In this document: in pieces, positions 3,050 to 48,725 of the stretch
Layout: every line of letters starts with the position of its first letter
How positions within the stretch are numbered: the stretch's first letter is position 1
NCBI GenBank assembly: GCA_003134515.1
Contig: PLBM01000042.1
Location: 1 to 50,535, forward strand
Length of the DNA stretch: 50,535 nt
Origin: Acidimicrobiaceae bacterium
GTDB lineage: Bacteria; Actinomycetota; Acidimicrobiia; Acidimicrobiales; RAAP-2
Reading direction: 5' to 3'
Program-made: the position numbers and the translations under genes
Notes under the pieces: generated by a model
The model's input: the letters and a program-made list of their open reading frames with translations, nothing else
The model's database searches: none
What the model was told of the DNA's origin: nothing

Positions 3050-3984
3050 GCGAACCCGAAGAGCATCGCACGCCCGTGTCGCTGAGTGGTCTCAGCGAGA
3101 ACGACCCGCACCTCTTGCCCGCGGCGAAGAACCCCAAGACCGTCGAGCTGGTGATCGCGATCAACTTCTTGCTGGGCACGGTGTTGACCGCCGGCTTTGG
3201 GGCGTGCTACTGGATCAATGCCCAACCCTGGAAGCTCGGCGCCACGCTCGGAGGTGGACTGTTCTTCTTTGGTGTCGGTCTGGTCGCGTGGGGTAAGTAC
3301 CTCATGCCCCGGGGACCGTTTGTCGAAGAGCGTCACGTGCTCGCCAACAGCGAGGCCGATCGCGACGCGTTCGCGGCGGCGATCGTCGAGCGCGGGGGTG
3401 CGGTGATGAAACGGCGCAAGATGCTGGGCGGCATCCTCGCCGGAGGTCTGGGCATCTTTGGGGTTGTCGCGATGTTCCCGGTGCTGCGTAGTCTCGGGCC
3501 GCTGCCCAAGGGCACCCTCTTTCACACCGACTGGCGCAAGGATTCCTACGTCGTCGACCAGAGCGGTCGACGCGTCTCGGCCGGCGATCTCGCGGTCGGC
3601 TCGATCATGACGGTGTTTCCCGAGGGCACCCAGGACTCCGAGCGCGGCCAAGCCGTCGACCAGACGGTGTTGATTCGAGTCTCGAACCAGAAGTTCACGA
3701 CCCAAAAGGGCCGCGAGTCGTGGGCCCCCTTGGGCTACGTGGCCTATTCCAAACTGTGCACGCACCTCGGTTGCCCGGTCGGACTCTACGAACAGCAGTT
3801 GCAACTGCTGGTGTGCCCGTGTCACCAGTCGATGTTCAACGTCAACAACGGGGCCGTGCCCCAGTTCGGACCGGCGCCGCGTCCGCTCCCTCAGTTGCCG
3901 CTCTACATCGACTCTCAAGGCTTCCTTCGCGCTCAGGCCGACTACGACCAGCCCGTTGGACCGGGCTTTTGGGAGCGCGCGTGA
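3046..3984 (+). CDS. qcrA: menaquinol-cytochrome c reductase Rieske iron-sulfur subunit
   Basis: CTHLGC...CPCHQS Rieske motif; three N-terminal TM segments; GTG start overlaps qcrC stop. Confidence 0.95.
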   Translation: MSEPEEHRTPVSLSGLSENDPHLLPAAKNPKTVELVIAINFLLGTVLTAGFGACYWINAQPWKLGATLGGGLFFFGVGLVAWGKYLMPRGPFVEERHVLANSEADRDAFAAAIVERGGAVMKRRKMLGGILAGGLGIFGVVAMFPVLRSLGPLPKGTLFHTDWRKDSYVVDQSGRRVSAGDLAVGSIMTVFPEGTQDSERGQAVDQTVLIRVSNQKFTTQKGRESWAPLGYVAYSKLCTHLGCPVGLYEQQLQLLVCPCHQSMFNVNNGAVPQFGPAPRPLPQLPLYIDSQGFLRAQADYDQPVGPGFWERA

Positions 3985-28130: not shown

Positions 28131-30017
28131 CTACGGCGTCGAGACGTTGGCGCTCGATGCGAGCGGCCCGTCGGGGGTGACGGGCCAGAACGCGATCGCG
28201 TCGGGCGAAAACGTCAACTGGCACCGATCGCCCACTCGATACTCGATCGGTTCGCTCGTACGCACTTGGAGTTCGAGCCCGGCGGTGACCGCGACAAAGA
28301 GGTCTACTGCCGTGCCGACGTCGGCAATGTCGATCAATGTGCCATTCAAGGAAGCGCCACGCGGTTCGTCGAGCGCGTCGGCAACCTCGGACGTCGCGAC
28401 AATTGAGATACGTTCCGGACGCACGCTCCACGCCACGATCGTCCCGGCGCGGAGATCCGAGGGGTTGGTGGCGATGAGGGCGCCGTTGGCGTTGAGAAGT
28501 CCGCTGGTCACGACCGTGGCGTGATGCAGGTTCGAGATGCCCAGCAGTCGTGCGACCTCGAGCGACGCCGGTCGAGTGAATACCTGGCGACTCGAACCGG
28601 ATTGCAGCACGCGACCCTCGCTGATGACGACCACCTCGTCGGACAGGAACGCCGCCTCCTCGGGGTCATGGGTCACGAGCAACGTGGCGAGGCCGGTTTC
28701 TCGCTGAAGACGGCGCAGTTCGCGGCGCAGTTCTTGTCGAACAGGTACGTCGAGGGCCGAGAACGGTTCGTCGAGCAGCAGTACCTGAGGCGAACTGCAC
28801 AGCACCTGCGCCAAGGCGACGCGCTGGCGTTGGCCCCCGGAGAGTTCCGAGGGGTAGCGGGCCACGAGTCCCTCGAGGCCTAGGTGCGTGAGCCAATAAC
28901 TCGCCAATTCGGGTGTGGCCATTCTCGCGAAGAGGAGTTGTTGCCATACCGTGAGGTGGGGAAAGAGAGAGAATCCTTGAGCAACGTAGCCGACCCGTCG
29001 TTTTTCGGCCGGGACGTGACGCAGCGACGTCTCGCCGCACCAAAACTCTCCGGGAGTTGCGCCGTAGACACCGGCGAGGCTGCGAAGAAGCGCCGACTTG
29101 CCCGAGCCTGAGGGTCCGAGTACGGCGACGTGATTGACGTTCGACGCGTGGGCGAGCGCCAAATGAAACGTGCCGAGGCGGTAGTCAATATCAAAGTGAA
29201 CGGGCGCGGCGATCACCTTGGTGGGCGATTGGGGTAGGGGAAGGTGTGGTCCACTGGCTCGCCGGCGCGTAAATCGAACCCGACTGATTAAGACGACGGC
29301 CACGGCGACGGCGATGGCGAGGGCGGTGGGGGCCAAGGTTGTGCGCAGGCCAACTCCACTGAACTGGTTGTAGGTGTAAATCGGCAGCGACGTTGGGTTG
29401 TACGCGAGCACGACGACGGCCCCGTACTCGCCAAATGCGCGCAACCACGCGAGGAGCATGCCCGCTCGGATGCCCGGACCGGCAACGGGCACCGCGACGC
29501 GCACGAAACGCGAGAGGTCCGAGTGTCCGAGTGTCGACGCCACGTCCAACAGTCCTTGGTCGACCGAGGTGAACGCGGCCCGGGCCGCGACGATGAGAAA
29601 CGGCGAGGCGACAAAGGTCATCGCGATCACGATGCCGATCTTTGATTCGGTCAGCGACTGGCCAAAGAGCCGGCCCAAAAGGGTGTAGGGACCGATGATG
29701 TAGATGAGCACGATGCCACTCATGAGGGGCGGCAGCGCCAGGGGAATTTGGACGATGAGTCCGACGATCGACGCCCATCGACTCTTCGAACGGGCCAACA
29801 GGTAGGCCAATGGCACGCCCAAGACCGTGATCAACGCCAATGAAATGGTGGCGCAGCTCACTGAAACCCAGAGGGCCGGAAAGAGCCCCGGCACGTGAAA
29901 ACCTCGATCGGAGGTGCTGAGAAAGCGAACGGCGAAGGCGACCAGGGGCACGGCCAGGTACAAGACGATGAGTCCGCCCAAAAATGTCAGCGGGCTTCGG
30001 ACGACGCCGCGCGACAT
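28131..30017 (-). CDS. fused molybdate-type ABC permease and ATPase (ModB-ModC fusion)
   Basis: N-terminal ModB-like permease; C-terminal Walker A LGPSGSGKSALL, LSGGQRQRVALAQ, LLLDEPFSALD and TOBE-like tail in one ORF. Confidence 0.9.
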   Translation of the reverse strand: MSRGVVRSPLTFLGGLIVLYLAVPLVAFAVRFLSTSDRGFHVPGLFPALWVSVSCATISLALITVLGVPLAYLLARSKSRWASIVGLIVQIPLALPPLMSGIVLIYIIGPYTLLGRLFGQSLTESKIGIVIAMTFVASPFLIVAARAAFTSVDQGLLDVASTLGHSDLSRFVRVAVPVAGPGIRAGMLLAWLRAFGEYGAVVVLAYNPTSLPIYTYNQFSGVGLRTTLAPTALAIAVAVAVVLISRVRFTRRRASGPHLPLPQSPTKVIAAPVHFDIDYRLGTFHLALAHASNVNHVAVLGPSGSGKSALLRSLAGVYGATPGEFWCGETSLRHVPAEKRRVGYVAQGFSLFPHLTVWQQLLFARMATPELASYWLTHLGLEGLVARYPSELSGGQRQRVALAQVLCSSPQVLLLDEPFSALDVPVRQELRRELRRLQRETGLATLLVTHDPEEAAFLSDEVVVISEGRVLQSGSSRQVFTRPASLEVARLLGISNLHHATVVTSGLLNANGALIATNPSDLRAGTIVAWSVRPERISIVATSEVADALDEPRGASLNGTLIDIADVGTAVDLFVAVTAGLELQVRTSEPIEYRVGDRCQLTFSPDAIAFWPVTPDGPLASSANVSTP

Positions 30018-40197: not shown

Positions 40198-41288
40198 GAC
40201 ACCAACTTAGAGGGACATCCGAGCGTCACACTCGCGTGGCGCACTGCCGTCTTCCAGTCAATCGTGAGACGCGCCGAGGTGTAGGCCGGGGTCAAGTACA
40301 ACGTCGACACCAGCTGTTCCCAGGTATTGAGGTCCGCGCCGTTCCAGTGGGTGATGACGTCGCCGACGATGACGTTGGCGTGCGCCGCGGCACTGTAGGG
40401 CTCGACCTTGGTGACGAGCACGCCGCCCCCTTGTTCGTTCTTACCCGAGATGCCAAGATCCGCGTGACACCCCCGTCCGGTCGCCACTACTTCGGCGACC
40501 TGGGCGACGAAGCGCGCCGCGTACCACTGGTGACGAGAAGAAAGTACCGCCACCACGTAGCCCTTCGCGTCGACCGCGATGGCGTCGACGAAGCCACTAA
40601 GGCTGGTATCGGACTTCGTGGCGAGGTAGCGCACGACCCCGACGGCGTTATTCGAGGGATCACCGAGCGTGGTCAGCGACCAGTCGTACTCGGGCGTCGC
40701 CGACGTTCCTTTCAAAATGGGCGCCACGGCGATAACCGAGGTGCTCGAGGGCATGGGGTCGAGTTTCAGGGCGGTCACCGGCACGCTCAAGCGCACGATC
40801 GAAAAACCCATCACGTTGTCGTGACCGACGAGCGTGACGGGAAAGTTGGCCTTGGTCGCGGTCGACCCGCTGATGAGCGCATTGACGGGGATGGCGACCG
40901 TGGTCACCGCCAAATCGTGGGGTAGCACGAGGGCCGCGACGTAGACGACGTGACCCGATGACGAAATCGTGAGATCGACGGTGTTGGCCGCGGCAACACG
41001 ACTCGACGCCGGCAGCGCGCTGAGGGTGGTCGCGAGGTGTGCGGGCAAGTTGGCGGCGGGCGTGCCCGCGCCTCGATTGACCACTAATACGACGCCGCCG
41101 ACGACTAAGAGCAGCGCCATCACGCCCGCAGTGACCCGCGGGCTGAGGGATCGGGTCCGGATACTCGTCGTGGTCGCCAACGCCTCAAAGCTCGGCAATT
41201 CGCTCGGATGGACCCAGGGACGGCTTTCGACCGGCGGTCTCGCGCGACGACCCGATCGCCGCCATCTCGAAAAATTCCATCCAGCCAC
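40194..41288 (-). CDS. membrane-anchored trypsin/HtrA-like PDZ protein, apparently non-catalytic
   Basis: One N-terminal TM; protease-like core; C-terminal PDZ GGGVLVTKVEPYSAAAHANVIVGDVITHWNG. Confidence 0.7.
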   Translation of the reverse strand: MAGWNFSRWRRSGRRARPPVESRPWVHPSELPSFEALATTTSIRTRSLSPRVTAGVMALLLVVGGVVLVVNRGAGTPAANLPAHLATTLSALPASSRVAAANTVDLTISSSGHVVYVAALVLPHDLAVTTVAIPVNALISGSTATKANFPVTLVGHDNVMGFSIVRLSVPVTALKLDPMPSSTSVIAVAPILKGTSATPEYDWSLTTLGDPSNNAVGVVRYLATKSDTSLSGFVDAIAVDAKGYVVAVLSSRHQWYAARFVAQVAEVVATGRGCHADLGISGKNEQGGGVLVTKVEPYSAAAHANVIVGDVITHWNGADLNTWEQLVSTLYLTPAYTSARLTIDWKTAVRHASVTLGCPSKLVS

Positions 41289-41345
41289 GGGTTAAAGGCT
41301 AGTAACCAAAGGGTTCTTAATGCCGTCGCCCTAACATCGCTAGTC

Positions 41346-42350
41346 ATGGCTGTAGACGTCGCACTCGACATTGGAACCTCGCGCACGCGCTTGGCGACCA
41401 GTCAACGCGGTGTGCTGTTCGACGAACCCACGATGGTCGCGATTGACAACAACTCCGGGGTCGTCGTGGAGCTCGGACACGGTGCGCTGGAACTGGTCGG
41501 GCGCACGTCGCGCCACGTTGTGGTGTTTCGACCCTTCGCGCAAGGCGCCACCGTTGACTTCGACGTGACCGCACGGCTGATCGCCGCGCTCTTTGACCGC
41601 GCGGGCGTGTCCAAACTCTCTCGAGCTCGCGTGGTGATGAGTGTGCCGTCACTGGCCACGGCCATCGAACGGCGTGCGCTTCGCCAAGCCGCCATTCAAG
41701 CCGGCGCGCGCGAGGTCAGCTTGGTCGAGGCGCCGCTCGCCGCCGCGATTGGTCTAGGTCTGCCCGTCCAAGATCCGGTCGGCTCGGCCGTGACGCTACT
41801 GGGTGCGGGCGCGTCCGAGGCGGCCATCATCTCGTTGGGCGGCATCGTCACCGGCGGCGCGCGTCGCCTCGGCGGCAACGACGTCGACGCGGCCATCGCG
41901 ACGCTGCTGCGACTCAACTTGGGTGTCGTGGTCGCGTCGTCAATCGTCGAGATGCTCAAATGCACCTTGGCGTCCGCCCTAGGGCGAACTGCGGGACTCG
42001 TGGAAGTCGTGCTGGCTCGAAGTGTTGATCGAGGCGAGTTGGTGCAGGTTGAAGTCAGCGCCGAGTTGGTGAACGCGGCCGCGCGCGACGTGCTCAACTC
42101 AACGATTCGCATGATCCAAGAGTGTCTTGGGGACACAGCGCCGGACCTCTCCCAGGACGTCAGCGCAAGAGGCATGACGCTGGTGGGCGGCCACGCCAAT
42201 TTACGAGACTTCGATGAGTTGGTGGCGATCTCTACCGGGGTCGAGGTAAACGTTGCGAGTCAATCAGACCTGGTCGTCATTCACGGACTGCAGGCCTGTC
42301 TTGAAGAGATGGCCTCTCTTCACGCGCTCTTTCGAAGCGCCGACCGCTAA
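41346..42350 (+). CDS. MreB/actin-like protein, divergent
   Basis: DIGTSRTRLA; DEPTMVAID; RPFAQGATVDFDVTARLI; EAPLAAAIGLGLPVQDPVGSAVTLLGAGASEAAIISLGGIV; TLVGGHANLRDFDELVAISTGVEV. Confidence 0.85.
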   Translation: MAVDVALDIGTSRTRLATSQRGVLFDEPTMVAIDNNSGVVVELGHGALELVGRTSRHVVVFRPFAQGATVDFDVTARLIAALFDRAGVSKLSRARVVMSVPSLATAIERRALRQAAIQAGAREVSLVEAPLAAAIGLGLPVQDPVGSAVTLLGAGASEAAIISLGGIVTGGARRLGGNDVDAAIATLLRLNLGVVVASSIVEMLKCTLASALGRTAGLVEVVLARSVDRGELVQVEVSAELVNAAARDVLNSTIRMIQECLGDTAPDLSQDVSARGMTLVGGHANLRDFDELVAISTGVEVNVASQSDLVVIHGLQACLEEMASLHALFRSADR

Positions 42351-43024: not shown

Positions 43025-44101
43025 GTGTTAGTGACTGCCGCGATCCTGATCGCTCTCGTGCTGGGACTGCACGCGTGGAACACATCGGAGTACGCGCTCA
43101 CCCCGGGCAATGCAACGCCGGTGGCACCGTTGGTGAAGATCCACGGCGTCGCGACGAATCCTCATCACGACAAGATCATGCTCGCCGATGTCTACCTTCA
43201 GTCACTGACAGCCTGGCAGTGGTTGACCATGCACTTTCAATCTCACGTCCAGTTCGTGCCCGCCAGCGAGCTCGTGAATCCGGGTATTCCCAGTGATGAA
43301 CTCGGGGCGCAGGGGTTTCTCGAAATGCGCGATGCCAAACAGGCCGCGGAAGTGACGGCCTTTCGTTCGTTGGGCTGGACGGTGCGCGCCACGCGAACGG
43401 GCGCGATCGTGAATGGCGTGGTGTCACCGTCGCCGGCCCGCTCGGCGAACGTGCACGTCGGCGACGAGATCGTGGCCGTGAACGGCACGCCGGTGCGTTC
43501 GACATGCCAACTCATTGGTTACGTTCACGACCTCGCGCCGGGCACGAAGGTGCGACTCAGTATTGAGCGCGTGAAGATCTCCAACTCCGGGACGTTGTCG
43601 TGGCGCGCGCCGATGACTTTGAATATGCGAACGGCCAGCGTGGCGAGCGGCGTCGGTGCTTCGGGGTGCGTCGGACTGACGGGTCGGGCTCGGTCGTGGC
43701 TGGGCGTGTCGGGCGAGGACGGATACAGCTATCTACTGCCCGCGAGCGTGTCGATCGATACCGCCGACATCGGCGGACCATCGGCGGGACTGGCGATGAC
43801 GTTGTCGCTCATCAATGAACTAAGCGGCGGATCACTGACGGGGCATCACGTCATCGCCGCCACCGGCACCATCGACGTTAAGGGCAACGTCGGCGACGTC
43901 GGTGGCGTGGCGCAAAAGACCGTCGCGGTGCAACGCGCGGGAGCGACCTTCTTCTTCGTGCCCCAAGTGGAGGTGGCAGCGGCGCGCGCCGCGGCCTCAC
44001 CGGGACTCACGATCCTCGGCGTGACGACACTGCGCCAAGCGCTGCGCGACCTGCGAAGCCTCGGCGGCGTTGCGCCCCAGCCCCTCACCGCGCCCTCCTA
44101 A
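43025..44101 (+). CDS. PDZ-Lon protease domain protein (YlbL-like)
   Basis: N-terminal TM; PDZ; Lon-like GGPSAGLAMTL and GGVAQKTVAVQRAGATFFFVP (Ser/Lys dyad present). Confidence 0.92.
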   Translation: MLVTAAILIALVLGLHAWNTSEYALTPGNATPVAPLVKIHGVATNPHHDKIMLADVYLQSLTAWQWLTMHFQSHVQFVPASELVNPGIPSDELGAQGFLEMRDAKQAAEVTAFRSLGWTVRATRTGAIVNGVVSPSPARSANVHVGDEIVAVNGTPVRSTCQLIGYVHDLAPGTKVRLSIERVKISNSGTLSWRAPMTLNMRTASVASGVGASGCVGLTGRARSWLGVSGEDGYSYLLPASVSIDTADIGGPSAGLAMTLSLINELSGGSLTGHHVIAATGTIDVKGNVGDVGGVAQKTVAVQRAGATFFFVPQVEVAAARAAASPGLTILGVTTLRQALRDLRSLGGVAPQPLTAPS

Positions 44102-44139: not shown

Positions 44140-45804
44140 ATGGACGACCGGCGATCACTTTCTTCGACGCGCCAATCGTCGTCCGAGATTGCTCGGGCAA
44201 ACTTCACGACCCTGCGCAAGGGTGGCGTCGATCCCAACGAGGTTCGCCTTCACTTAGAAGCGGTCGCGCGTGAGATGGGCCACCTCGAGCACCGCATTCG
44301 TGAACTCCAAGAACAGCTGAGCGAATCCCAGCGACGCGTGGCCAATCCCATCCTGGACGAGGCGACCTTGACTGGTGCGCTGGGCTCGCAGAGTGCGGCG
44401 ATACTTCGCTCGGCCCACGAAGAGGCCGGTCGGGTCACCGCCGAAGCACAAGAACGTAGTGCGCAAGTCTTCACCGAGAGCCAACAGCGCAGTGCCGGAC
44501 ACCTCATCGAGGCGCAAGAGCGCGCTACGGCGTTGATCACCGAGGCCGAGAACACGGCCCTGCAGATCGATCACGAAGCGCGCTTGGCCGCCGAGCGACT
44601 TATCGATTCGGCCAAGGTGAATGGTGAAGCGCTCATTGATCGCGCGAGAGAGCAAGGGCGCGCCATCGTTGAGCAGTCCAACGAGGCCCGTCGCACCGTT
44701 TTGAACGACCTCGCCGTCAATCGCAAGGCGTTGCAAATGCAGATCGAGCAACTTCGCGCGGCGCGCGACACCCTGGGCTCGTTCGTCTCGATGGTGCGCC
44801 AACAGGTGGACGACGTGGTGTCGGGTATCGACTCATCTGACGAAGTGGCGCGCGCCGCCGCGCTCGACGCGCTGCGCCAACACTCCAACGCGCCTGAACC
44901 GAGCGAAGAGGAGTTGCTCGCCGGCACGCCCTTACGCGAAGTGCCCGAGAACACGCCCGACGCGCCCGCGGATCCGAACGCCCCCAAATCGCGTTCGCGC
45001 AGGGCCACCAAGGGCGCCGCGCCGGCCGAGTCGCTGCTCGAAGACGATCCGTCGGGCACCGATGTCGTCAACGAGATCTTCGCCCGACTGAGAAAGGCGA
45101 CGCTCGAAGAGCGCGGCGCCTCGGCGCACGCCCCCCGAAAGGTTCCCGCGCACAAGCTCGAGACGCCCGTCGGCGAGCTCTTTCGTCGCCGGGACCAAGC
45201 ACTCGACGAGTCGCTCACGGTGCTGACCCGACGGGTCAAGCGAGCTCTCCAGGACGATCAAAACATCATGCTGGAGCGTCTGCGCGACGTGAAGGCCATG
45301 ATCACGACCGAATTGGAAGATGAGCACGCCCAGCGCGCGCGCTACGCCGAGTCGGCCTACGAGGCCCTCGCGCACGCGGCGGGTGCCGGTGAGCAGTTCG
45401 CCAGAGATGAGGGCGGCGTCGCGGGCGCGCCCCTTTCCAGGGCGGCGCTTGACGACTGCGCGGCCGATCTGGCCGTCACGATCGTGCTGGCTCTGCGCAA
45501 GAAGATCTTGGCCGACGGCAGTGGCGGGGGCACCGAGCGCGCGAACGCGGCCTATCGCGAGTGGCGCGGCGCGCGCGTCGAGCGACTCTGCACCGACGCC
45601 GCCCGACGGGCCTTTCACTTAGGCGTCGTGACGGCCGCCCAGGGCCGTCTCATTCGCTTTGTCGCAGCGCCCAACGACGCGCCGTGTGACGCGTGCGCGC
45701 GCGACGCGGCGAGCGCGGAGCGCCCCGCCGGCGATAATTTTCCCAGCGGCGCGCCGTACCCTCCGCTGCATGCGGGCTGTGCTTGCGCTGTCGTGCCCGT
45801 GTAA
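44140..45804 (+). CDS. DivIVA-like coiled-coil protein with Mu gpF/SPP1 gp7-like C-terminal domain
   Basis: N-terminal LHLEAVAREMGHLEHRIRELQEQL; long coiled coil; C-terminus CDACARDAASAERPAGDNFPSGAPYPPLHAGCACAVVPV. Confidence 0.65.
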   Translation: MDDRRSLSSTRQSSSEIARANFTTLRKGGVDPNEVRLHLEAVAREMGHLEHRIRELQEQLSESQRRVANPILDEATLTGALGSQSAAILRSAHEEAGRVTAEAQERSAQVFTESQQRSAGHLIEAQERATALITEAENTALQIDHEARLAAERLIDSAKVNGEALIDRAREQGRAIVEQSNEARRTVLNDLAVNRKALQMQIEQLRAARDTLGSFVSMVRQQVDDVVSGIDSSDEVARAAALDALRQHSNAPEPSEEELLAGTPLREVPENTPDAPADPNAPKSRSRRATKGAAPAESLLEDDPSGTDVVNEIFARLRKATLEERGASAHAPRKVPAHKLETPVGELFRRRDQALDESLTVLTRRVKRALQDDQNIMLERLRDVKAMITTELEDEHAQRARYAESAYEALAHAAGAGEQFARDEGGVAGAPLSRAALDDCAADLAVTIVLALRKKILADGSGGGTERANAAYREWRGARVERLCTDAARRAFHLGVVTAAQGRLIRFVAAPNDAPCDACARDAASAERPAGDNFPSGAPYPPLHAGCACAVVPV

Positions 45805-45824: not shown

Positions 45825-48725
45825 GTGCGAAGTCCCACCGACGTCCCCTCGCGTCCCCGGCGTATCGGACGGCTCTCGCGGCGATTCTGGATTGGACTGA
45901 TCTTCGTCGTCCTGCTGGTCGGCTTTCTCTCCCTGCGCAACCTGGCGGTGCTGTGGACCGATCAGATGTGGTTCTCATCGGTAGGGCTTTCGAGCGTCTT
46001 TTCCACGCTGTTCTTCGTCAAGGTGGGGCTGTGCTTCACTTTTGGCGCGATTTTCTTCTTCATCATGTGGGGCAATCTCTTGCTCACCGATCGATTCGGC
46101 GCGCGCGATCTCTCCTTTGACCCCGAAGACGAGGTCGTGCGACGTTTTCAAAACGTCGTACGGCCCTACGCCAAGCGCATCTACGCGGCAATCGCGCTGG
46201 TCATGGGCCTCATCGCCGGGCTCAACGCGACGGGCCAGTGGCAGAAGTACTTACTTTTCTCTCACGCGCAGTCGTTTCACATCACGGACCCGGTCTTTCA
46301 CAAAGACCTGGGCTTTTACGTCTTTACGCTGCCTTTTATCTCGTTCGTGGTGACGTGGTTCCTCGTCATTCTCATCCTGGCGCTTCTGGTCACGACGGGC
46401 TTTCACTTCTTGAACGGCGGTATCCGTACCACACGCGCCACGCCGCGGGTGTCGCCGCGGGTGAAGGCCCACCTGTCGGTGATCGGCGCGGCCATCGCTC
46501 TGATGAAGGCGGCGGGCTATCTGCTGGCTAAGTGGGAGTTGGTCAACTCCACCAACGGCTACGCGCAGGGCGCGAGCTACACCGACGTTCACGCCCGCAT
46601 GCCGGCGCTGACCATACTCTTCTACCTTTCGCTGGCCGCCGCAGCAATTCTCTTGTACAACGTGCGCTCGAGGGGCTGGTCGTTGCCGGTGGTGGCGGTC
46701 GGGCTCTGGGTTTTCGTCGCGCTCGTGATTGGCGTGCTCTATCCGACGTTCCTCCAGGCCCTAAAGGTCAGTCCCAACCAGCAGTCACTGGAGTCGCCGT
46801 ACATCCAGCGCAATATCAGCGCGACTCGCGCGGCCTTTGGCCTCGACAGCGTGAAGTACCACGCCTTCGCCGGCTCGACTTCCATCACTGAATCCCAGAT
46901 CAAGGCCAACAAGCCGACGTTGAACAACATCCGACTCTGGGATCCGGCGAACACGATTGCCTTAGAGACGGTGACCCGCCGCCAGTCGATTCGTTCCTAC
47001 TACACGTTCTCCACGTTGTCGGTGGATCGTTACTACATAAACGGCAAGTTGACGCCGGTCTTGATCGGGGCCCGTCAACTCAACACCGCGAGCTTGCCTT
47101 CGCAGAGTTGGGTCAACCAGCACCTGCAGTACACCCACGGCATCGGCGCGGCGGTGGTGGCCGCGAACCAGGTCGACGCCGCGACGGGCAACCCCAACTT
47201 CGTCGTGTCGAACGTCCCACCGGCGTCGACCAACGGCATGCCGACCTTGACCGAGCCCGACATCTACTTTGGCATCAACGACCCCGGATGGGTGGTGGCC
47301 AACTCCAAGCAGCCCGAACTCGACTACCAGGTGAACGCGGGCGCGAACGCGGGCTCGCCCGTTGAATCGCACTACGCGAGCACCGGGGGCGTCGCGGTGG
47401 GCAACATCTTTTCTCGCATGGCGCTCGCGCTACGCCTCGGCGACTTCAACTTTCTCATCTCGAACCAGATCGACTCGAAGAGCCGCGTGCTCTTCGTGCG
47501 CGACGTGCGCCAGATGGTCCAAAAGGCCGCGCCGTTCCTCTCCTTTGACTCCCAGCCCTACGCCGTTATCGCCAACGGCCAGGTGCAGTACGTGCTGGAC
47601 GGCTACACGACGACGAGCCAGTACCCCTACAGCGAGAGCGCCTCGCAGCTCGGCATCACGATGGGCGGTCTGCCCAGCAACTTCAACTACGCGCGCAACT
47701 CAGTCAAGGTGGTCGTCAACGCTTACACCGGATCGATGAAGTTCTACGCCAATGACCCCAACGACCCCATCTTGAAGGCCTACCGCTCGGCCTTCCCCTC
47801 GATGTTCCAGCCCCTAAGTGCGATGCCCTCGACGATTCGCTCGCACCTGCGCTATCCCACGGACCTTTTCTCCGCTCAGGCCGCGACCTTGGGGCGCTAC
47901 CACATCACCTCGGCCAGCGCCTTTTACAGCGCGTCGGACCGCTGGGAGGTCTCGCCCACGACGGGCGCGGGCTCACCCTCTGAGGCGCTCGCGCGCACGG
48001 CCGTGATTGACGCGGCGGGCAACGTGGTCTCCACGTCGCTCTCGCCGATGAGCCCCATCCTTCAAGTCGGTTCCCTGCCCAGCGCCAACCACCAACAGTT
48101 GCTCGAGACCATCGACTACGTGCCGGCGGGCAACTCCTCGACGGTCCAGAGCCTGACGGCGTTCATGGTCGCCACCAGCGACCCCTCCGACTACGGGCGA
48201 CTGAGCGTCTACGAGACCACCCGCGGCACCACGGTCACCGGCCCGCTGCAGGCCGACTCGGAGATTCAACAGACCTCCAAGGTCAGCTCAATCATCACGC
48301 CCTTGGACCAACACGGCTCGAACGTGATCCTGGGCAACAACTTGACGGTGCCGCTCGATTCCAGTGTGCTCTACATCCGTCCGCTCTACGTCACCAGCAC
48401 CTCGAACCCGATGCCCCAGCTGCGCTACGTGATCGCGGTCTTTAATCAAGACGTCGGCATCGAGCCGACGTTGGCTGGGGCGCTCTCGGACGTGCTCGGC
48501 GCGAACGTCAGTGGTCTGACGAGCACCCCCCCGACGGGCAACGGCAAAGGTAAGACCCCGCCCACCACGAGTGCCAGCGTGGCCTCCTATCTCCAACAGG
48601 CCTCGGCCGACTACGCCAACGCACAAAGGGCCCTGGCGAACGGGGACTTGGGGCTCTATCAAAAAGACGTCAACGCCATGAACCAGCAACTCGAACTGGC
48701 GCGGAACTCGCTCGGCGGCGGGTAG
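45825..48725 (+). CDS. UPF0182 family membrane protein
   Basis: 966 aa; seven N-terminal TM segments; IQRNISATRAAFGL; FVVSNVPP; EPDIYFG; FLSFDSQPYAVIANGQVQYVLDGYTT. Confidence 0.95.
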   Translation: MRSPTDVPSRPRRIGRLSRRFWIGLIFVVLLVGFLSLRNLAVLWTDQMWFSSVGLSSVFSTLFFVKVGLCFTFGAIFFFIMWGNLLLTDRFGARDLSFDPEDEVVRRFQNVVRPYAKRIYAAIALVMGLIAGLNATGQWQKYLLFSHAQSFHITDPVFHKDLGFYVFTLPFISFVVTWFLVILILALLVTTGFHFLNGGIRTTRATPRVSPRVKAHLSVIGAAIALMKAAGYLLAKWELVNSTNGYAQGASYTDVHARMPALTILFYLSLAAAAILLYNVRSRGWSLPVVAVGLWVFVALVIGVLYPTFLQALKVSPNQQSLESPYIQRNISATRAAFGLDSVKYHAFAGSTSITESQIKANKPTLNNIRLWDPANTIALETVTRRQSIRSYYTFSTLSVDRYYINGKLTPVLIGARQLNTASLPSQSWVNQHLQYTHGIGAAVVAANQVDAATGNPNFVVSNVPPASTNGMPTLTEPDIYFGINDPGWVVANSKQPELDYQVNAGANAGSPVESHYASTGGVAVGNIFSRMALALRLGDFNFLISNQIDSKSRVLFVRDVRQMVQKAAPFLSFDSQPYAVIANGQVQYVLDGYTTTSQYPYSESASQLGITMGGLPSNFNYARNSVKVVVNAYTGSMKFYANDPNDPILKAYRSAFPSMFQPLSAMPSTIRSHLRYPTDLFSAQAATLGRYHITSASAFYSASDRWEVSPTTGAGSPSEALARTAVIDAAGNVVSTSLSPMSPILQVGSLPSANHQQLLETIDYVPAGNSSTVQSLTAFMVATSDPSDYGRLSVYETTRGTTVTGPLQADSEIQQTSKVSSIITPLDQHGSNVILGNNLTVPLDSSVLYIRPLYVTSTSNPMPQLRYVIAVFNQDVGIEPTLAGALSDVLGANVSGLTSTPPTGNGKGKTPPTTSASVASYLQQASADYANAQRALANGDLGLYQKDVNAMNQQLELARNSLGGG

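Follow-up and report, generated by a model that had tools for sequence, protein, structure and literature searches.

The window analysed here (50,535 nucleotides, positions 1 to 50,535 of contig PLBM01000042.1 from an Acidimicrobiaceae bacterium) contains a reading frame in which a DivIVA-like scaffold is followed by a domain that looks like a phage head protein. This raises the question of whether the likeness to phages is genuine and, if it is, whether the gene is a viral leftover or an ordinary component of the cell, and what its product may do there. The first-pass annotation had suggested a polar scaffold with a domesticated phage domain.

Architecture of the gene and its neighbourhood

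An open reading frame with the proposed architecture and Cys/His motif was indeed found at 44140-45804, the coordinates being exact. The features of the locus are as follows.

43025-44101, + strand: upstream neighbour, PDZ-Lon (YlbL-type) protein (PF13180 and PF05362), 38 nt before the fusion gene
44140-45804, + strand: DivIVA-MuF fusion gene, single ORF of 554 codons (554 aa) with an ATG start, kept at full length in genomes of the same genus
44179-44500, + strand: DivIVA N-terminal membrane-binding head and first part of the coiled coil (residues ~14-120; PF05103), loop RKGGxDPxEV
44500-44835, + strand: Ala/Glu/Gln-rich coiled coil up to about residue 232, read from the sequence
44836-45171, + strand: low-complexity, Ala/Pro/Glu-rich, fast-evolving linker to about residue 344 (dN/dS about 0.25)
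45172-45801, + strand: MuF-like C-terminal domain of about 210 residues, with long helix 1 (KRALQDDQNxxLERLR), a helical bundle and a small strand/knuckle tail
45685-45786, + strand: putative metal-binding tail C516xxC519 ... H544xxC547xC549, from conservation in 174 bacterial and 33 viral sequences
45825-48725, + strand: downstream neighbour, UPF0182 membrane protein (PF03699, E=5e-246), 20 nt past the fusion gene

The C-terminal domain ends in CDAC, then FPSG, then PPLHAGCAC (written CDAC...FPSGAPYPPLHAGCACAVVPV). In relatives, the gap separating the DivIVA and C-terminal domain matches ranges from 68 to 438 residues. Scans of the locus for promoters and terminators gave no signal above chance.

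The DivIVA-like nature of the N-terminus was confirmed by a profile search, in which PF05103 scores 34.7 bits (E=1.9e-8) against a cut-off of 28, with the long Ala/Glu/Gln coil behind it. The protein shares with DivIVA/Wag31 (PF05103; NF050102) an N-terminal head bearing the R(K/R)GxDPxEV loop and a long coiled coil; across the order the loop reads R(R/K)G(F/Y)DP and precedes the coil. It differs from this family in its additional MuF domain, in its locus, and in being an extra copy beside the divIVA of the ftsZ-sepF cluster. Neither mark of a Wag31 equivalog is present: NCBIfam DivIVA_Wag31 (NF050102) gives 34.4 bits on residues 62-207, far below its cut-off of 260, and the gene lies outside the division cluster. 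The canonical divIVA of the same genome (254 aa) is located elsewhere, at 4897-5661 of L235, in the cluster murC-murB-ftsQ-ftsZ-yggS-sepF-divIVA. Many genomes of the order show at least two DivIVA-type matches, and the fusion gene is most likely a second DivIVA-family scaffold beside the canonical divIVA. In the genus of the window the membrane loop (44206-44247) mostly contains one additional residue (RKGGxDP vs. R(K/R)G(F/Y)DP).

Relationship of the C-terminal domain to phage MuF

The C-terminus had been likened to Mu F/gp7. At the level of the superfamily this was supported by sequence profiles, profile-profile comparison and predicted fold, whereas the nearest relatives turned out to be portal-fused MuF segments (phrog_2662) and not Mu F itself. 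The window protein matches phrog_2662, a phage portal family, with E=6.9e-6 over the C-terminal segment of the family. This is the best-scoring family for the domain: it was matched by 24 of 25 homologous domains scanned singly (best E=2.9e-14), and the match spans residues 39-215 of the domain. PF04233 was matched by 13 of the 25 homologues at E≤0.5, the best reaching 3.8e-5. The window protein alone shows no match to PF04233, and a search of its own genome with that profile returned nothing because the window member is too diverged. Similarly, tblastn of the domains of the window and of one relative (L035) against 50,697 phage records gave no hit at E≤1, so that the link to phages has to be made with profiles. 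Scanning viral contigs with ten homologous domains yielded 51 loci. One viral relative (L204) is an 815-aa portal ending in a MuF domain, its gene lying between terminase and the major head protein.

An hhalign comparison of 64 bacterial with 14 viral domains gave 99.5%, E=5e-23 over 202 columns, the viral domains having been chosen because they matched and 13 of the 14 being PF04233 members; independent support therefore comes from their assignment to PF04233, from the control comparisons and from the search by fold. When either alignment was reversed the value dropped to 3.2-3.5%, and the DivIVA coil gave 0.2%. An AlphaFold2 model built from the bacterial alignment (pLDDT 92.8, pTM 0.91) is composed of long helices, a short strand and a small tail. 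Foldseek of this model against predicted viral structures retrieved 47 matches at E≤0.001 spanning the whole domain, and nearly all of those with names are portal, head-morphogenesis or minor capsid proteins. The structural check proposed earlier thus recovered phage head and portal proteins among predicted viral structures and none in the PDB, where Foldseek found no match at E≤0.001 and a profile-based sequence search produced chance-level matches only (ribosomal protein uS19 and ZorA, E≥0.045).

Could the likeness be due to convergence alone, a cellular helical domain having acquired a similar Cys/His zinc knuckle? The similarity peaks over the final ~50 residues, the window protein itself falls short of PF04233, and no PDB fold matches at E≤0.001. 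However, the helical part deprived of the Cys/His tail still aligns at 91.6% (E=8e-7, 149 columns), and both the phrog_2662 match and the Foldseek phage matches extend far beyond the tail. We therefore consider convergence highly improbable. Taken as profiles and as a predicted fold, the C-terminal domain is homologous to MuF, notably to the MuF part at the end of some portal proteins, and that a fusion exists whose C-terminal part has this ancestry is nearly certain.

The bacterial domain shares with phage Mu F/SPP1 gp7 (MuF superfamily, PF04233) a helical domain with W and G positions, a CxxC...PPxHxGCxC tail, and the fold. Unlike those proteins, it has no phage context and no detectable portal gene, it has lost the TET motif, it bears a host-specific KRxLQDEQN helix, and the window member is missed by PF04233 itself. 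Portal proteins with a fused MuF C-terminus (phrog_2662) are the closest family, but there the domain follows a portal body and here a DivIVA scaffold. In MuF polymorphic toxins and polyvalent proteins (PMC5576092, PMC5512222) MuF is likewise joined to other domains; these are usually effector domains and the products are packaged in virions, whereas here MuF is the C-terminal end of an effector-free cellular scaffold.

Conservation, distribution and origin

The Cys/His tail had been put forward as the shared feature, and so it is, but the conserved host-specific part also includes the long helix KRxLQDEQNxxLDxLR. Among 174 bacterial homologues, the positions of C516, C519, H544, C547 and C549 hold C, C, H, C and C in 160, 158, 172, 174 and 174 sequences, respectively, and such retention shows that the pattern is not due to chance. 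In helix 1 of the same 174 sequences, K367 and R368 are each kept in 173, D372 in 171 and L378 in 172. The TET motif of phages (32, 30 and 23 of 33 viral sequences at its three positions) is replaced in the bacterial domains. In one relative (L050 of G052) an early stop has removed the Cys/His tail, with the helical part and the downstream UPF0182 gene retained. Hence the tail is not always needed, and the function may centre on the helix-1 region. A simple counting method applied within the genus, with synonymous sites near saturation, puts dN/dS at about 0.12 in the DivIVA/coil part, 0.15 in MuF and 0.25 in the linker. The fusion gene is single-copy and under purifying selection.

Of 61 relatives searched, 59 have the full-length protein, and the domain profile was found in at least 205 of 296 genomes of the class, a lower bound since a limited number of candidates was scored per genome. 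One genome (G045) was missed by this class-wide domain search, yet its DivIVA part was found by the full-length search. Among 397 genomes drawn from the phylum, families outside the class included, 56 were positive. The small class of G428 contributes 8 positive genomes out of 24, and families f78, f100, f107 and f126, outside that class, are positive as well; at least two further class-level lineages therefore carry the domain. A weak match in one genome (G689, L248) was rejected as a false positive, the sequence being glycosyltransferase-like. Named records with the domain are mostly Acidimicrobiia/Acidimicrobiales metagenome-assembled genomes, plus Aquihabitans, Acidiferrimicrobium and Aciditerrimonas. 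Of the 179 host ORFs that contain the domain, 165 also encode DivIVA in the same frame; most of the remaining 14 are truncated at a contig end or divided between frames. The search for the same fusion in other actinobacteria thus succeeded across the class and in further class-level lineages.

The neighbourhood is equally constant. UPF0182 lies directly downstream of the fusion gene in all 95 loci with enough flank and in all 19 true members of a more distant set, and YlbL is upstream within reach in 61 of 73 loci. An MreB-like gene is upstream in 38 of the 61 relatives' loci; in the window an MreB/Mbl-family gene (PF06723, E=1.4e-74) occupies 41208-42350, near the fusion gene. The earlier remark that no phage genes lie nearby is correct, as the Pfam-named neighbours are housekeeping genes. 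The portal or terminase neighbour, or the prophage setting, that goes with the MuF superfamily was not found; the neighbours are YlbL and UPF0182. A search of 37 genomes of the genus for portal genes, made with Pfam PF04860 only, also found none.

According to Jamet et al., prophages or their remnants hold 96% of chromosomal muf genes (PMC5576092), which makes the DivIVA-MuF family an exception. That frequency would suggest a prophage remnant or an assembly artefact joined to a divIVA gene, but with the identical fusion and neighbours in many families and independent assemblies, purifying selection, and no portal detected in the genus, this explanation has virtually no chance, and a prophage remnant is ruled out by conservation. 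The fusion is apparently inherited as an ordinary cell component and not as a viral leftover. The proposed domestication thus gains support from the presence, throughout a large clade and outside prophages, of a MuF homologue at the end of a DivIVA scaffold, and the MuF domain has very probably been domesticated as a cellular gene. For the direction of transfer we infer phage to cell. In a maximum-likelihood tree one branch parts all viral from all bacterial sequences, with an SH-aLRT of 91 that is below the threshold for strong support and in an unrooted tree; this split fits one origin but falls short of proof. It appears rather likely that an ancestral actinobacterium acquired a capsid-vertex domain from a virus in a single event, and that this domain became a core part of a second DivIVA-type scaffold of the pole or septum, whose gene has stayed in an operon with that of UPF0182 in three or more classes.

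Possible role of the protein

In the DivIVA family the heads bind curved membrane and the coils oligomerise. The N-terminal head and coiled coil of the fusion protein would accordingly bind and oligomerise at the curved inner membrane, at the pole or septum, and the flexible linker would present the domesticated phage portal/MuF domain as a protein-docking head. The function of the protein may be tied to UPF0182, which it probably places or organises. SPP1 gp7 is a portal-binding, minor internal capsid component that is dispensable yet aids infection (PMC6316719), and MuF can therefore be seen as a docking module on the structural vertex of the phage. Since none of the 37 genomes has a PF04860 portal, the docking partner here must differ from a portal. 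With a median net charge of -4.1 per 100 aa in host proteins vs. -1.8 in viral ones, the domain is acidic overall, which disfavours nonspecific DNA binding and fits protein docking better. Together with the portal absence and the acidic charge, the fact that UPF0182 is the only near-invariant genomic companion favours a scaffold with a docking head. Operon linkage is nevertheless no proof of physical partnership; from these lines we infer membrane localisation, a docking role and UPF0182 as partner. As a mechanism, a protein-docking head working with UPF0182 is put forward tentatively, at somewhat less than even chances. The best explanation as a whole, a second DivIVA scaffold presenting a domesticated MuF docking head and tied to UPF0182, stands at about even chances.

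An alternative is a RacA-like nucleoid tether, in which MuF would have kept the DNA binding of SPP1 gp7 and would anchor the chromosome to the pole or septum. DivIVA proteins of other bacteria help to anchor the chromosome, the domain has a locally basic helix 1 (+3), and SPP1 gp7 is described as a DNA-binding protein that the portal targets to the procapsid (Stiege 2003, cited in PMC6316719). The net charge argues against a DNA tether, the host domains being more acidic than their viral relatives, and the conserved linkage is to a membrane protein gene and not to segregation genes. We regard such a tether as unlikely.

Defence genes are usually patchy and fast-evolving. A membrane-anchored MuF could serve as a phage-defence decoy that binds incoming portals or head proteins and derails head assembly, given that the domain is derived from a portal-binding protein or has a common ancestor with one; inhibition of virion assembly is a known defence principle (PMC10884400). 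The PADLOC defence models gave no family for the fusion protein at E≤1, the domain no longer has the TET motif that phage MuF conserves, and the gene is single-copy and class-wide, with a fixed housekeeping context and steady purifying selection. A decoy is thus improbable, more so than a tether, and the scaffold with a docking head remains the preferred reading.

Our search of the literature turned up no functional study of UPF0182, a widespread membrane protein. Among other actinobacteria sampled for their UPF0182 loci, YlbL is commonly upstream and no DivIVA was detected, so UPF0182 has no strict need of the fusion protein. The literature search likewise found no publication on a DivIVA-MuF fusion and none linking DivIVA with UPF0182, and a paper on DivIVA-like proteins that includes Acidimicrobiales DivIVA (PMC9858780) makes no mention of phage or fusion. 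Both parent families are known; the combination, its class-wide conservation and its locus are not found in the literature searched. If the scaffold reading is true, this MuF domain, kept vertically across a class as part of a cytoskeletal-type scaffold, would clearly exemplify the domestication of a virus head protein, with a structural module of viral origin put to use in organising the bacterial cell, comparable in spirit to encapsulins. It would also open a first way into the function of UPF0182 and into the little-studied cell organisation of Acidimicrobiia.

In one locus (L310 of G379), a 154-aa DivIVA without MuF is encoded on the - strand at about 3062-3523, 48 nt before UPF0182. This suggests that a DivIVA-UPF0182 pairing can exist without MuF, and the layout is possibly a pre-fusion arrangement. 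Elsewhere in the window, a 628-aa ORF at 28131-30017 (- strand) joins an ABC permease (BPD_transp_1), an ABC ATPase and TOBE in a permease-ATPase fusion.
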